Below, in pieces: positions 25,467 through 31,097 of a stretch of 64,000 nt of DNA. The notes below the pieces were generated by a model that saw only the letters and a program-made list of their open reading frames with translations, searched no databases and was not told where the DNA came from. The DNA comes from Bdellovibrionia bacterium. Its GTDB lineage: Bacteria > Bdellovibrionota > Bdellovibrionia > Bdellovibrionales > JAGQZY01. Each line of letters begins with the position of its first letter. Within the stretch, counting starts at the first letter, position 1. Where the stretch lies: positions 186,001 to 250,000 of the forward strand of contig JAUICP010000004.1 of assembly GCA_030427805.1 (NCBI GenBank). The letters run 5' to 3'. The translations under genes and the position numbers were made by a program.

Positions 25467-26219
25467 ATGGCTTTTGAACTTCATGGACGCGTTCTTTTCC
25501 TCAAAGGAAACTTGCTCTCAGCAGAAGACTTTCCACCAACGCCTCCCTTTTTACAGCTTGAAGTAAACCTTGAAGGTGTCGAATACATTAACTCCGATGG
25601 ATTGAATGCCTGGAAGAAATGGATCTCTAAATTTAGAAGCGACCAAATTATAACTCTGACCCACGTCCCTAACTTCTTTTGGCAAAGAATGCGCCTTCAC
25701 GATGGAGCGATCCCCAACAATTCTAAAATCGAAAGCATGTATGTCCCCTGTTACTCCGAATCCCTAAGCATGGAACATCAAGCTCTGATGGAAGTTGGAA
25801 AAAACCTGATCATCACCGATGATTCTGTGATTGTTCAATACGACTTTTCGCAAATCACCCCAGCGGCCACCGACTGGTTTGTTGATGTTGTGGATGAGGG
25901 TTATTTTCACTTTTTACTCGAAGTGGACCTGCGCTTTAAGAGCAGCCAAATCGAGCAACCCGAAAACAAATTGGGCATCGAACAAGAGTTTATCGAGGAC
26001 CTAAAGCCACTTTGGAATCCCAAGGAGTTTGAAAAAAATGTTCGCGACATGCGCGAACGCATAGCCCGTCGCATTGGAAAAGATGAATTGGAGCGCCTTG
26101 AGAAAGTGGCGCAAAAAATAGGGATTGCCGACCCTCAATTTTCAAAGATTTTTGTCAGTGGCGACGACGATTCGAAACCCACATCTTCACGGAAAATGTT
26201 CGATACCTTAGATACTTAA
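25467..26219 (+). CDS. STAS-like domain protein
   Basis: 250 residues; AAGGAG site before ATG 25467. The first ~100 residues resemble a STAS fold: LEVNLEGVEYINSDGLNAW matches the region around the phospho-acceptor Ser of anti-sigma antagonists (Ser-Asp-Gly-Leu). A second similar block may lie at about 105-160. The remainder is helical and charged. It may sense or relay phosphorylation in partner switching; the HATPase protein at the left window edge is one possible, unproven, partner type. Confidence 0.55.
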   Translation: MAFELHGRVLFLKGNLLSAEDFPPTPPFLQLEVNLEGVEYINSDGLNAWKKWISKFRSDQIITLTHVPNFFWQRMRLHDGAIPNNSKIESMYVPCYSESLSMEHQALMEVGKNLIITDDSVIVQYDFSQITPAATDWFVDVVDEGYFHFLLEVDLRFKSSQIEQPENKLGIEQEFIEDLKPLWNPKEFEKNVRDMRERIARRIGKDELERLEKVAQKIGIADPQFSKIFVSGDDDSKPTSSRKMFDTLDT

Positions 26220-26316: not shown

Positions 26317-26333
26317 TTGGCGTTTAACTTGCA
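26317..26333 (+). promoter_or_regulatory. Candidate sigma-54 promoter of the peptide/radical SAM cassette
   Basis: TTGGC at 26317-26321 and TTGCA at 26329-26333, GG-N10-GC. Predicted start near 26345, leaving about 128 bases of untranslated leader before ATG 26473. The 253-bp gap from 26220 holds no gene. Elements around it, such as the alternating A+T-rich and G+C-rich blocks, could include activator sites, but I cannot define one. Confidence 0.55.
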
Positions 26334-26472
26334 CCATTAAAGAAAATGTAAAGATCCCTAGAGCCGGAATGCACCATTCTTGCTATTTTGAATCTTTGGG
26401 ACTAGTCTTTACGGCGTAGAGCAGAAATGCGCACTATTTAAGTTCTGCAAAGTTAAATAAGGGTTGGGATTC

Positions 26473-26748
26473 ATGAAAAAAAGAGACTTTCTAAAGAAAT
26501 TTGTAGCCGGTGGAATTATCGCAGCAGCTGGTTTAGTCAGTAAAAATGCCAATGCGCGTCAAGGCATGACTGATGAAGAGCTCGCCGAGCTCGCAATTCT
26601 TCTCCTCGAATCAGACGATGTTTCTTCCGTTGAGGATTTGAAAAATATCCGTTCAGTTCAAGAACTGACTCCAGCGCAGCAGCAGCGTTTGGCGGCAATT
26701 ATTCGAAGAGGTGCTGAAAAGCTTCTTCAAACGTCTCCTTGGGCGTAA
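26473..26748 (+). CDS. Small exported peptide, possible RiPP-like precursor
   Basis: 91 residues from ATG 26473; the frame opens at TTG 26464, but the ATG is preferred. The N-terminus is Tat-like: KKRDFLKKF (Lys-Arg variant of the twin-arginine motif), a hydrophobic Gly/Ala/Ile run and a likely cleavage after NANA. The ~60-residue mature part is acidic and helical, with no Cys, and ends TSPWA. It lies 12 bases before a radical SAM gene and shares its promoter, the arrangement expected of a peptide and its modifying enzyme. It could instead be a Tat-exported partner subunit. Confidence 0.65.
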   Translation: MKKRDFLKKFVAGGIIAAAGLVSKNANARQGMTDEELAELAILLLESDDVSSVEDLKNIRSVQELTPAQQQRLAAIIRRGAEKLLQTSPWA

Positions 26749-26760
26749 AGGGTTCTCAAT

Positions 26761-27579
26761 TTGAAAGCAAAAGAAGTTTATGTTTTGCTTTCAGACCTTT
26801 GTAATTTCAAATGTGAGCATTGCCTCAACAGTTCGGGCCCGCAAAGTCAGCGATGGCGCCTCAGCGAGCCCGAAATTCAAAAAATTTGTTCCGATATCAA
26901 TGCTGATCCACAGGTTCAGCAAATTCACTTTTCTGGTGGCGAACCGAGCCTCCACTTGGATTGGCTCAAACTCTTTAAAAAGAACCTCCGAGAGGACGTC
27001 ACCTGGGCGATGACCAGCAATGGATGGTTTGGCTCGAGGCTTCCCGACTTTTTTGAAGGCCTCCATTTTGACAAAATTTCTCTCAGTTTTGACTCTTACC
27101 ACCTCCCCTATATCAGCGCTGAAAAATTAACCGAAACGGCATTGAAACTAAAAGACATGGAAATCGATGTCGATATCCTCTTTACCTTTGAGGGGCCAAA
27201 AGACTTACTCCTCACCAAAACCTTTAAAGATGCGGGCATACCAGTACAGTTTTGCCAAATCGTTGAAAGTGGCCGACACGACAAAGAGGTCCATCAGGGC
27301 AAGAGCCTGCAGACCGGTTGCCCTTCTCTGCCCCAAGAATCACGAGCCCTAGAAAAAATTAATTACATTCCCGGTAAAGGTTATACCTACTGCTGTGGTC
27401 CTTTGGCTTTTGACTCCCACAGAGAGGACTCTTTTTTATACACGGGAGAGTTAAAAAACATGGGTGAAACTCCCTTGTACAAAGAACTCACCTCTGAAGC
27501 TTTTTTTACGAGCTACCAAAAGAGCGATCAGTCGATTTGTCACTTCTGTGTCAACTACCTGTCAAAGGCTCCTCAATGA
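26761..27579 (+). CDS. Radical SAM enzyme with SPASM/twitch-like C-terminus
   Basis: 272 residues from TTG 26761; no other start precedes the cluster motif. The radical SAM core carries CNFKCEHC (Cx3Cx2C, residues ~13-20) and the GGE motif FSGGEPSL at about 60. The C-terminal third has further cysteines (GCPS, YCCGP, and CHFC near the end) that could ligate an auxiliary iron-sulfur cluster, as in peptide-modifying SPASM or twitch enzymes, though shorter and not clearly consensus. Substrate is inferred to be the preceding 91-residue peptide. The stop overlaps the next start by four bases (ATGA). Confidence 0.85.
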   Translation: MKAKEVYVLLSDLCNFKCEHCLNSSGPQSQRWRLSEPEIQKICSDINADPQVQQIHFSGGEPSLHLDWLKLFKKNLREDVTWAMTSNGWFGSRLPDFFEGLHFDKISLSFDSYHLPYISAEKLTETALKLKDMEIDVDILFTFEGPKDLLLTKTFKDAGIPVQFCQIVESGRHDKEVHQGKSLQTGCPSLPQESRALEKINYIPGKGYTYCCGPLAFDSHREDSFLYTGELKNMGETPLYKELTSEAFFTSYQKSDQSICHFCVNYLSKAPQ

Positions 27580-29000
27580 GTTTTTATTCAAAAGCACTTC
27601 TGATACTGATTTCTATATTATTTTTAAGTTCCTGCGATCTCAACAAACGTTCTCACGAAACCTATCGCGTCGGTCTCCGCCTGATCCCCAAGGCCCTCTC
27701 TCCCTGGGATAACCAGGTTAACACCAACCTTCTTATCATGCTTCAGCTTTACATCCCACTTTTTGAAGTGGTTGGGTCGGAGCAAATTCGTTCTCGCCTC
27801 TTAGATAAAAAACGCACTCGGGTTCTCGACGAAACCCATTCAAAATTCATGATGTGCCTTAACAAGGACCTAAAATTTTTCGACGGCAGCCCCGTTACAA
27901 TTGACGACTTCAAAAATTCGCTTCTGAAAGCCCATGGGAAGATTCAAGCTCTTCCGCAAATTGAAAAAATAGAAAACGAGAAAAACTGTTTAAAAGTCAG
28001 CCTCAAAGAGGTCGACACCGATTACTTCCGCAAACTAACGAGTGTTGCGACAAGCATATTTAAATCGAACACCCTTGAAAAAGACATTCCAATTGGGGTT
28101 GGCCCTTATTCTATTAAACTCAGCACTAATGACCAAATGATTTTAGATCGTAACAATATCTTTCCGAGCCAATTGCGACGACTTGAATTTGTTAAGTATG
28201 ACTCAAGTCTCGATGAAGAGGAGTTATCTCGCATTCATGATCTCAACCATGTTTACCAACTCCCGATCCCACCCGATCGAAAATTAACTTACCGAAGAAT
28301 CGAACGGCCTTCTTTAAAGTCCTACATACTGTTTTACGGCAACGCCTCATTAAAAGATCGACTCCTCTTTGCCGCTTGTCTGTCGAAACATCCTATTTCA
28401 GAGGTCTTTGGTTTAAAGCTCCAACCGGTCAAAGGTTTCTTGCCGCCACCTCTACTTGGAAGCTTTATTGATGAAGGCCCCAAATATGGTTCATGCCCCA
28501 AGATGAAAACGAAAAAAGAATTTCGCCTGGTTCACTTTAACAAAGAAGTGATTCGGTCTCTTGAATTCTTTTTTCAAAAAAACCAAGACAAACTTCCGTT
28601 TAAAATCAAAGTCGACTTTTTGCCCTTTGAAAGGGTGCCCGAACTCGTATTTTCCCACGAAAATGTGATCACTCTTATCGGCTTTGACTCCTCGGGCTCT
28701 TACAACGCCCTTCTCGACGGATCTTCCTCATTTTTTAGGAGCTTTGTCGGCAATCAACGACTGACGAAAAACGAAAACAAAACTCTCGATGAATATCTCA
28801 GTCAGGCACTGGATGCAAAAAAGCTGAAGAGCAAAGAGTTTTTCTACAAAAAAGCCCACGAAGTTCTATTGAGTCGACATTACTTCTTACCGCTGGGCCA
28901 GGACATACTTATTCAATTTTATCCATCTTTTATAAAAAAGGTGAGCTGGGCTGATCCTTACAGCCCATTTCCTTTGTATAGCTTTTTTGAAATTCAATAA
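27576..29000 (+). CDS. Family-5 extracellular solute-binding lipoprotein (peptide-binding type)
   Basis: 474 residues. ATG 27576 overlaps the radical SAM stop (ATGA), showing translational coupling. A lipobox LSSC puts the lipidated Cys at about residue 20. The mature part follows the SBP_bac_5 pattern: a start like YRVGLRLIPKALSPWD, a charged-residue cluster around FFDGSPVTIDDFKNS, then GVGPYSIKL at about 185, and a C-terminal HEVLLSRHYFLPLG. Family members bind oligopeptides or nickel for ABC importers, but no permease or ATPase is adjacent. The stop codon abuts an insertion sequence, so downstream genes may have been separated. Confidence 0.8.
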   Translation: MSFYSKALLILISILFLSSCDLNKRSHETYRVGLRLIPKALSPWDNQVNTNLLIMLQLYIPLFEVVGSEQIRSRLLDKKRTRVLDETHSKFMMCLNKDLKFFDGSPVTIDDFKNSLLKAHGKIQALPQIEKIENEKNCLKVSLKEVDTDYFRKLTSVATSIFKSNTLEKDIPIGVGPYSIKLSTNDQMILDRNNIFPSQLRRLEFVKYDSSLDEEELSRIHDLNHVYQLPIPPDRKLTYRRIERPSLKSYILFYGNASLKDRLLFAACLSKHPISEVFGLKLQPVKGFLPPPLLGSFIDEGPKYGSCPKMKTKKEFRLVHFNKEVIRSLEFFFQKNQDKLPFKIKVDFLPFERVPELVFSHENVITLIGFDSSGSYNALLDGSSSFFRSFVGNQRLTKNENKTLDEYLSQALDAKKLKSKEFFYKKAHEVLLSRHYFLPLGQDILIQFYPSFIKKVSWADPYSPFPLYSFFEIQ

Positions 29001-29052
29001 AAACTGACCCCGTTTAGTGTGTGTATCTCTATCAATATGCTTGGTACCCTAA

Positions 29053-29955
29053 ATGCAGTATCTCTTATCAATGAAGAGATACTGCACGAAATGTCCACAA
29101 CAACACAGCGAAATTCGAAAACACGGATTTTTCAAACGAAAATCCGACTATAAATTCATCCAACGATTTAAATGTATTCGTTGTAATACCACTTTTTCCA
29201 AAGCTTCAACACAAAAGTGTATCCATCAAAACAAAAGGCACCTAAATTCAATCATCCTCAAACTCATCGCCAGCAAGAACTCCCAGAGACGAATCGCACT
29301 TCTTCTAGGCATTAGTAAAAATACAGTCGCTAGGAAAATTCAATTTCTAGCCCGGATCGCCCGAGAAAAAAATCGACAACAGTTAATCCAAAGTTCGTCA
29401 GTTCAAGAGATTATTTTCGATGACATGGAAACCTTCGAGCACAGTAAAATGAAACCCTTAAGTATTACGGTTGTCGTCGAAAAGTACACTCAAAGAATCT
29501 TGGGAGCCAGAGCCTCCATCATGCCCGCCAAGGGCCTCCTTGCAAAAAGGTCTCGAAAAAAATACGGAAGAAGAAAGGACCAAAGGCACAAAACGAGAGA
29601 GCAACTTTTTCAGGACCTTAAAAACACAATTGGGTCTCCTGCTACGATCGAATCCGACCAAAATCCCCATTACATTAAAAGTGTTACTCGACATTTCCCT
29701 GAGGCTAACTACATCCAGTATCGAGGGAGAAGAGGATGTGTCGTTGGTCAAGGCGAACTCAAAGAAGGAGGCTTCGATCCTCTTTTTTACCTCAATCACA
29801 CCTGTGCCATGATTCGAGATAATTTGGGTTGTTTGGTAAGAAGAACCTGGTGCACATCTAAAACAATTCACTATCTTCAGGATCGTCTTGATATCTACAC
29901 TTATTTTCACAACAACTTCCTATTGAAAAGCCGAAAGAAAGCAGCCCTCTCTTAG
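29053..29955 (+). CDS. IS transposase (zinc ribbon, helix-turn-helix, DDE)
   Basis: 300 residues from ATG 29053, or 294 from ATG 29071. N-terminal zinc ribbon (CTKC at about 12-15 and CIRC at about 44-47), a helix-turn-helix (SQRRIALLLGISKNTVARKI, about 78-97), then a DDE-type catalytic core: Asp in IIFDDME, Asp in IESDQNPHY, and probably Glu in GQGELKEGG before LNHTCAMIRDNLGCLVRRTW. The organisation resembles IS1/IS1595-type transposases; family not certain. ATG 29071 sits in the loop of a 13-bp perfect hairpin. Looks intact. Confidence 0.85.
   Translation: MQYLLSMKRYCTKCPQQHSEIRKHGFFKRKSDYKFIQRFKCIRCNTTFSKASTQKCIHQNKRHLNSIILKLIASKNSQRRIALLLGISKNTVARKIQFLARIAREKNRQQLIQSSSVQEIIFDDMETFEHSKMKPLSITVVVEKYTQRILGARASIMPAKGLLAKRSRKKYGRRKDQRHKTREQLFQDLKNTIGSPATIESDQNPHYIKSVTRHFPEANYIQYRGRRGCVVGQGELKEGGFDPLFYLNHTCAMIRDNLGCLVRRTWCTSKTIHYLQDRLDIYTYFHNNFLLKSRKKAALS
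29054..29086 (+). promoter_or_regulatory. Hairpin enclosing a transposase start codon
   Basis: A perfect 13-bp stem (29054-29066 with 29074-29086) around a 7-base loop that contains ATG 29071-29073. If translation begins at 29071, this structure would present or sequester the start codon; if at 29053, it sits just inside the gene. Confidence 0.7.
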
Positions 29956-29984
29956 CTCATTTTATAAAATGAATCTAAATTCTT

Positions 29985-30156
29985 TGTTTGTGGAACGAGG
30001 AGAATCATTCTTTGTGGAAAGTGTTATGGGGGTTCATTTTTAGGGCTCTTGCCAGCCGGATGCGACCCGGGCAAGAAGGGCAGGAGCCCGGCCCTAAAAA
30101 TGGACTCCCAGGATACTTGGAACAATTAGAACCTGATTCTCATCATCCCACAAACA
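29985..30156. repeat. 172-bp imperfect palindrome inside the IS
   Basis: Matching arms from the outside: TGTTTGTGG 29985-29993 with 30148-30156; GAGAATCA 30000-30007 with 30134-30141; the 12-bp CATTTTTAGGGC 30035-30046 with 30091-30102; inner CTTGCC 30048-30053 with 30070-30075. The outermost right arm overlaps the right terminal repeat. Non-coding; it may be a structured transcript or an end-protecting structure. Confidence 0.75.
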
Positions 30157-30173
30157 CAGGAATATGGGTCAGT

Positions 30174-31097
30174 TTAGGGGTAATTCGTTACGTTTCGGCC
30201 GTTGATCGGCTGAAGAGGGCGATTGTTTGAACTGTACTTTTTACGAAATGCGGTCAGCTGATCCATAGACATTTCTAGAGGAGTGTTCAATACCACCCAA
30301 CGGACCCCTTCGGTACAAGGAGGAGACGTCAATGACCCCTGATACTCGTAATAACTGAGCCTGGCCGGTAGAAAATCGGCAGGGTTAAGAAGAGCATCTG
30401 GCACGGGAACTTGAACCCCTTTTTGCTTTGGCCAGCGATTCCAAATTTCAGTTGCTGAAGTTAAGGGTGAGCCTTCTTTAATAAAAATAGCAACGACGGC
30501 AACATCTCCTTCGGGAGTACTGTGCTTAAGGTGAACCTCCATGGGAAAACCACGCTTAGACAACTTATGTTCACTCGGTGAGTGAAAGTGAACTTCATTA
30601 AGTTCATACTCTTTGTTATCTATTAGAAACTTATTGTTTTTAGAAAAGTTCACCTGAAGGGTTCGCCCATTATCGACGAGAGACCAAAGGGATGCTGAGT
30701 AATTAAAGCTGATCGGCTTTTCGGCGGATGGCTTTCTCCACACGAGGTTGATCGGACTTTGCCTATTGCCCTTTGAACAATTCTGCCACGTCGGCTTCAT
30801 CGCTCCCCATTGCTTTGGCCCAGCATCACCGGTGTAAGTCCAGTTCATATTTTCGGCATCCATTTTCGTCATCATGGCAGAAACTTGAACTTCTTGGTCC
30901 AATTGTTTTTGCCCAAAGGCTTGTCCTTGATCGGGATTGGCACTTGTTTTTTGATCAGAGGTTGCAGCCGCATTCTCAGCAGGAGCCTTAGCATCTTCTG
31001 CCGATTCTTTTTTACTGTGACTTCCGAAAAGCGAGCAATTCACGAGGAATAAACTTAAGGCAAATACTAACAGAAAATTGTTTACTTTATATGTCAT
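30174..31097 (-). CDS. Alpha-class carbonic anhydrase lipoprotein
   Basis: 307 residues from ATG 31097 (AGGGG upstream); an earlier in-frame ATG at 31151 lacks a site. Lipobox LVNC near residue 20, then an Ala/Lys-rich linker to about residue 85. The alpha-CA domain contains zinc ligands in VHFHSPSEH and MEVHLKH, the NRQSPINL block and GSLTSPPCTEGVRW. It interconverts carbon dioxide and bicarbonate at the envelope. The protein ends at NVTNYP just after the conserved PLQPINGR; the stop codon TAA is completed by the IS end, so a few C-terminal residues may have been altered by the insertion. Confidence 0.93.
   Translation of the reverse strand: MTYKVNNFLLVFALSLFLVNCSLFGSHSKKESAEDAKAPAENAAATSDQKTSANPDQGQAFGQKQLDQEVQVSAMMTKMDAENMNWTYTGDAGPKQWGAMKPTWQNCSKGNRQSPINLVWRKPSAEKPISFNYSASLWSLVDNGRTLQVNFSKNNKFLIDNKEYELNEVHFHSPSEHKLSKRGFPMEVHLKHSTPEGDVAVVAIFIKEGSPLTSATEIWNRWPKQKGVQVPVPDALLNPADFLPARLSYYEYQGSLTSPPCTEGVRWVVLNTPLEMSMDQLTAFRKKYSSNNRPLQPINGRNVTNYP

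Follow-up and report, generated by a model that had tools for sequence, protein, structure and literature searches.

In relatives of Bdellovibrio a previously undescribed, phylum-wide gene cassette appears to make and to sense a modified exported peptide. The anatomy of the genomes points to a RiPP-type autoinducing peptide system in which a family-5 solute-binding lipoprotein (SBP5) is the receptor subunit of a histidine kinase (HK). We assign this reading a probability of roughly 60%. Further-reaching, and with about even chances of being right, is the view of a phylum-wide Gram-negative pheromone system: interchangeable maturases (EpeE-like radical SAM (rSAM) enzymes with or without a GNAT, or YcaO proteins) would produce peptide signals of distinct chemistry, and co-evolving SBP5 receptors would relay these via a sensor kinase to sigma-54. 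Each genome of this predatory phylum would thus run several private channels.

Modified ribosomal peptide pheromones are mainly a Gram-positive theme. If true, the cassette would add a novel mode of peptide signalling to those of Gram-negative bacteria, family-wide among Bdellovibrio relatives, and a signalling language for which seemingly nobody has ever looked. Two types of maturase would act on signal-bearing precursors within one circuit, and multi-core precursors point to the mature signal. The predictions are immediately testable, i.e., the residue which is changed, the peptide bound by each SBP5, and autoinduction of the operons. A search of the open-access literature (subscription papers and preprints were outside its range) found no description of the cassette.

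The cassette in the focal genome

The window, i.e., the whole stretch of DNA analysed, has a length of 64 kb and corresponds to G000:C7:186001-250000, G000 being the focal genome. The cassette and the adjoining insertion sequence (IS) comprise the following features.

26318-26333, + strand: sigma-54-type -24/-12 element TGGCGTTTAACTTGCA (GG-N10-GC; score 13/15, shuffle p 0.01)
about 10 nt upstream of ATG 26473, + strand: ribosome-binding site AGGG of the peptide gene
26473-26748, + strand: putative precursor peptide gene, 91 aa (ATG 26473, stop 26748; no Cys)
26473-26556, + strand: signal sequence of the peptide, residues 1-28, cleavage site between ANA and R
after residue 28, + strand: exported part of the peptide, RQGMTDEE...LLQTSPWA, Cys-free
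26761-27579, + strand: rSAM enzyme, 272 aa, EpeE/YydG-like, TTG start
27391-27396, + strand: codons C211-C212 of the rSAM CC motif, C212 aligned with the H-donor Cys223 of EpeE
27576-29000, + strand: SBP5 lipoprotein, 474 aa, lipobox LSSC, proposed receptor subunit
29001-30175, + strand: IS, transposase 29053-29955

The initial annotation had described these parts correctly: a GG-N10-GC promoter, a 91-residue exported peptide without Cys, a 272-residue rSAM protein with a Cx3Cx2C core and extra C-terminal cysteines (Pfam Radical_SAM, E 1.6e-11), and a family-5 solute-binding lipoprotein (Pfam SBP_bac_5, E 4.4e-8), the start of which at 27576 lies inside the ATGA overlap with the rSAM stop. It had also called the peptide Tat-like. 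The export signal stands, yet its Tat character is weak, and Tat export was rejected because the peptide has KR in place of the twin arginine (RR) and homologous peptides lack the motif. Upstream of the cassette the window encodes a conserved 250-aa protein (25467-26219) which matches no Pfam family.

A second genome of the same genus (MAG record JAUHWN010000036.1, locus L034) carries the same cassette behind an identical sigma-54 element. Identity to the focal genome is 96-97% for rSAM and SBP5, and 96-97% or better for all three ORFs. The dN/dS ratios are 0.031 for the peptide, 0.052 for the rSAM and 0.034 for SBP5. Thus, all three cassette genes are under purifying selection and have been kept although the IS insertion is old.

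Two types of maturase and their putative precursors

The Cx3Cx2C motif of the rSAM enzyme corresponds to C14, C18 and C21; the C-terminal cysteines are located at 187, 211, 212, 260 and 263. By sequence and by fold the nearest solved relative is the peptide epimerase EpeE/YydG. A profile of the rSAM aligns with this family along the full length (E 1.3e-39, the next family following at 1e-12), and the top nine PDB matches of the predicted structure (pLDDT 84) are all EpeE (E about 1e-11, TM about 0.7). The auxiliary-cluster cysteines C187, C211, C260 and C263 align with EpeE and are invariant or nearly so in the family, and the CC motif is kept in nearly all of 21 homologs. Its second Cys, C212, is equivalent to Cys223 of EpeE, as the CC motif aligns with CA in the C223A mutant chain 8ai3. 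Cys223 supplies the H atom during epimerisation (PMC5682303). Asp210 of EpeE, located via 8ai6 (D210A), aligns with a non-conserved position. Further, the NCBIfam YydG model TIGR04078 is matched by 20 of 21 family members, none of which reaches the cut-off (focal rSAM 54 bits, cut-off 300 bits). For these two reasons we say that the focal enzyme probably works like the YydG epimerase, and do not class it as one; the peptide may undergo a different rSAM reaction. A viperin-like defence enzyme was considered and rejected, with 40.7 bits against an NCBIfam viperin cut-off of 180 and EpeE being far closer.

The comparison with the epeXEPAB operon of Bacillus (formerly yyd) is instructive. Common to both are the rSAM cluster together with the C-terminal auxiliary cluster, the conserved Cys223, and a small peptide gene adjoining the enzyme. 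Apart from Asp210 and the YydG cut-off, the differences are that cassette precursors bear a signal peptide, and that SBP5 and HK take the place of the EpeP protease and the EpeAB transporter, neither of which was seen in the homologous loci inspected. EpeE is apparently leader-independent (PMC8326336). The initial annotation had suggested that the Cys-free core may represent a different class. The core is indeed Cys-free; a new class is not needed, since epimerases require no Cys in the substrate and an EpeE-like epimerase would explain it.

At E<1e-20 the rSAM profile delineates a clear group throughout the phylum, with members in 19 of 369 genomes. Within the order the E-values of full members are below 1e-70, a single degenerate copy has 2e-28, and generic rSAMs are at 1e-17 and weaker. 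The gene order recurs: signal-bearing small protein, rSAM, GNAT, SBP5, and an HK with two transmembrane (TM) helices. The GNAT is either a gene of its own or a fusion with the rSAM, and some loci lack it. The pairing of an exported small peptide with a peptide-modifying rSAM, originally suggested for the window, is supported by this recurrence and by the likeness of the enzyme to EpeE. A contig scan with degenerate patterns recovered 2 of >20 known loci and is therefore uninformative on occurrence outside the phylum. One rSAM-GNAT fusion homolog (L040, G052:C6, 5913-7367, - strand) lacks the cysteines of Cx3Cx2C and is possibly a pseudo-maturase. Two SBP5 genes lie beside it; opposite are an MFS-like protein, a third SBP5 and a kinase.

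SBP5, kinase and exported peptide also occur together with a second type of maturase. A kinase-led search of the focal genome retrieved two operons with SBP5, kinase, exported small peptide and a YcaO maturase; a third YcaO operon is located at C7:2555-6916. The focal genome carries four parallel operons, the focal rSAM cassette and three with YcaO, each with its own proposed receptor. When the order was searched for Pfam YcaO, SBP5 and kinase were found beside 18 of 20 short-form loci inspected; two short-YcaO loci are without SBP5. Because these loci were chosen by PF02624 alone, the shared SBP5 and HK are not due to search bias. As in TOMM/azoline systems (YcaO, SagD/McbD), the YcaO of the sister operons has a SagD-type domain and the precursor cores end in Cys/Ser/Thr motifs. 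Different from these systems, the sister operons have a lone short YcaO (300-350 aa), a signal-bearing precursor, SBP5 and kinase, and neither a dehydrogenase nor an ABC exporter was seen in them.

The phylum contains predators, and autoinducing RiPP antibiotics are known. Both points can be counted for the notion that the cassette makes an epipeptide which is antimicrobial or acts on prey, that SBP5 and kinase serve autoinduction or self-protection as in the nisin system, and that signalling is secondary to killing. The epipeptide made by EpeE, which perturbs membranes in B. subtilis (PMC8326336), favours this notion as well. However, no exporter, protease or immunity transporter was seen in the loci inspected, the cores are very short and diverse, and several parallel operons with receptors of their own exist per genome, e.g., the four mentioned above. 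We consider a primarily antimicrobial role as rather unlikely, though it is the strongest competitor of the signalling proposal.

What, then, is modified? Where upstream sequence is available, rSAM loci have a signal-bearing peptide ORF adjoining maturase or SBP5, and so have nearly all YcaO loci. A leave-one-out profile of homologous peptides recovers the focal peptide with E 2.7e-4, mostly via the signal part; after removal of the signal sequence the match has an E of only 0.93, and the mature parts are divergent among homologs. By profile the homology of the mature peptides is no more than moderate. Tandem cores are present in several precursors. In G217 the unit RAVAATM occurs three times, G184 and G187 encode 312-aa proteins with AIAWA repeats, and the third YcaO operon of the focal genome has DTQPCxxCxxP twice. 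The repeated units match single C-termini elsewhere (AARQAVAATIGQ in G158). At L131 (2519-3457) and L134 (2908-3846, both operon-oriented) 312-aa exported proteins with AIAWA/TITWG repeats replace the short precursor.

The peptides further segregate according to maturase. Cys is present within the last 30 aa in none of 19 rSAM peptides and in 14 of 20 YcaO peptides (p 3e-6), the latter count including two small ORFs which are doubtful or without a Cys/Ser/Thr motif (G002_L163, G000_L082). In the clade ordered YcaO-peptide-SBP5-HK the C-terminal motif is P[ST]C, with Cys replaced only by Ser; in another YcaO operon (G082) Thr replaces the motif Cys. Cys, Ser and Thr are the residues cyclised by YcaO enzymes. 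Tandem cores, the Cys dichotomy and the C-terminal Cys/Ser/Thr motif mark the small exported proteins as the probable precursors.

One may argue that rSAM or YcaO modifies SBP5, the kinase or a small molecule instead, and that the small exported protein has an accessory role or regulates the kinase. The length of some peptides (312 aa) and the poor definition of others in some YcaO operons are compatible with this. Yet tandem cores, a Cys dichotomy which matches the enzyme chemistry, and the position beside the maturase fit a substrate, and we regard a different target as improbable. A maturation protease, the lack of which next to the cassette the initial annotation had noted, is absent from all loci inspected. 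The signal peptide of the precursor renders a dedicated exporter unnecessary.

Binding protein, sensor kinase and sigma-54

The focal SBP5 reaches 33.1 bits in Pfam SBP_bac_5 (cut-off 32.4). Its model (pLDDT 86) has the fold of OppA, DppA and NikA (best E 3e-25), and the pheromone binder PrgZ is among the profile matches (E 3e-14). According to the initial annotation the lipoprotein captures or returns the product. This part is not supported. In agreement with that annotation, the flank in the window has no ABC permease; beyond this, neither permease nor ATPase genes are beside SBP5 in any of the homologous loci inspected in full. Instead, SBP5 is constantly accompanied by a sensor kinase with two TM helices, and for both reasons sensing fits better than capture or return. 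SBP5 proteins usually serve ABC importers, and the fold matches include metallophore binders of the NikA and CntA types; nevertheless, with a kinase as the neighbour and no permease seen, uptake of the modified peptide as a private nutrient, metallophore or peptide carrier was rejected as very improbable.

A chance neighbourhood of three unrelated genes, which the focal genus alone would permit, is refuted by the co-occurrence in other genomes that the initial annotation had proposed to check: an SBP5 gene is present within 1.5 kb in 20/22 rSAM-family loci over the phylum and in 14/15 short-YcaO loci (34/37 combined), compared with 0/36 control loci consisting of generic rSAM and classical YcaO (Fisher p 1e-17). 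In the SBP5 tree, rSAM and YcaO operons are on the two sides of one branch, with a single change (96/85), as expected if the receptor follows the chemistry of the ligand.

The kinases have two TM helices which flank a periplasmic loop of about 90-125 aa in 32 of 33 cases. Genes for NtrC-type sigma-54 activators adjoin 13 operons; in one YcaO subclade all eight operons have them 3' of the kinase, and in five other operons they lie upstream. Within the order, sigma-54 sites (at least 12/15) precede 11/26 operons, compared with 30/267 gene starts of the background (p 2e-4); upstream of operons outside the order no good site was found. Near-identical YcaO-SBP5-HK-NtrC operons exist in genomes of different families (L153, G121:C59; L159, G083:C13), which suggests a recent transfer of a whole signalling channel, or contamination.

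Wherever the contig continues, the full rSAM loci of the order all have an HK, except in the focal genus. There, in both genomes, the IS occupies the position of the kinase; the focal locus has no GNAT either. The IS starts at 29001, immediately 3' of the SBP5 TAA, is framed by a 10-bp inverted repeat (AAACTGACCC, 29001-29010 and 30166-30175), and is found, diverged, at the same site in the same-genus genome. The presumption that a partner gene was lost here is supported, as the HK of related full rSAM loci lies 3' of SBP5, exactly at the junction taken by the IS. Consequently, the signalling circuit of the focal genus is locally incomplete. A kinase operating in trans was looked for in the focal genome and rejected: the best matches to the kinase of G027 align in the kinase domain only. 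Two of the top matches are members of the YcaO operons; another, at C7:264067, is close to an NtrC-type regulator, and no link to the cassette was found. The IS itself has a single ORF with a zinc-ribbon-like N-terminus, for which Pfam gave no clear transposase match, and around 30040-30110 it contains a long G+C-rich hairpin.

The genes present and their conservation, the relationship of the enzyme, the topology, and the promoter and regulator neighbourhood suggest the following course of modification, cleavage, binding, phosphorelay and autoinduction. The small protein would be made with its signal sequence, and the EpeE-like rSAM would modify its C-terminal part in the cytoplasm, most likely by converting L- to D-residues; a GNAT, where present, would add a second change. 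Export by the general pathway and trimming would release a short C-terminal signal. The SBP5 lipoprotein would bind this signal and hand it not to a permease but to the periplasmic domain of the HK. The kinase would phosphorylate the NtrC-type regulator, which in turn would activate sigma-54 promoters including that of the cassette, closing an autoinduction loop. In the sister operons YcaO would act on the C-terminal Cys/Ser/Thr within the same circuit. In the focal genus peptide and receptor may use a kinase encoded elsewhere, or may be kept for another use.

Individual elements of this proposal have precedents. In the nisin NisRK and Agr systems one gene cluster provides both a peptide and the histidine kinase that senses it. 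These systems are Gram-positive, whereas the cassette is Gram-negative, has rSAM or YcaO as maturases, and would read its peptide by a periplasmic binding protein with a sigma-54/NtrC output. In LuxP-LuxQ, TorT-TorS and ChvE-VirA a periplasmic binding protein is the input of a kinase and is not used for transport; in the cassette this protein belongs to the oligopeptide family 5, and the operon itself contains the gene for the proposed ligand. Lipoproteins of the PrgZ type in Enterococcus are SBP5 proteins which bind a peptide pheromone, as is proposed here; PrgZ delivers its peptide to Opp import and to a regulator inside the cell, in contrast to the membrane kinase of the cassette.

Small HPt/DHp-like proteins (HRHDLKGSIRNLRFILDELEHDD) are encoded just upstream of the peptide gene in L139 (3859-4089), L140 (2943-3185) and L141 (172-420), and, on the complement strand, in L165. 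They are possibly part of a phosphorelay or regulators of the kinase.
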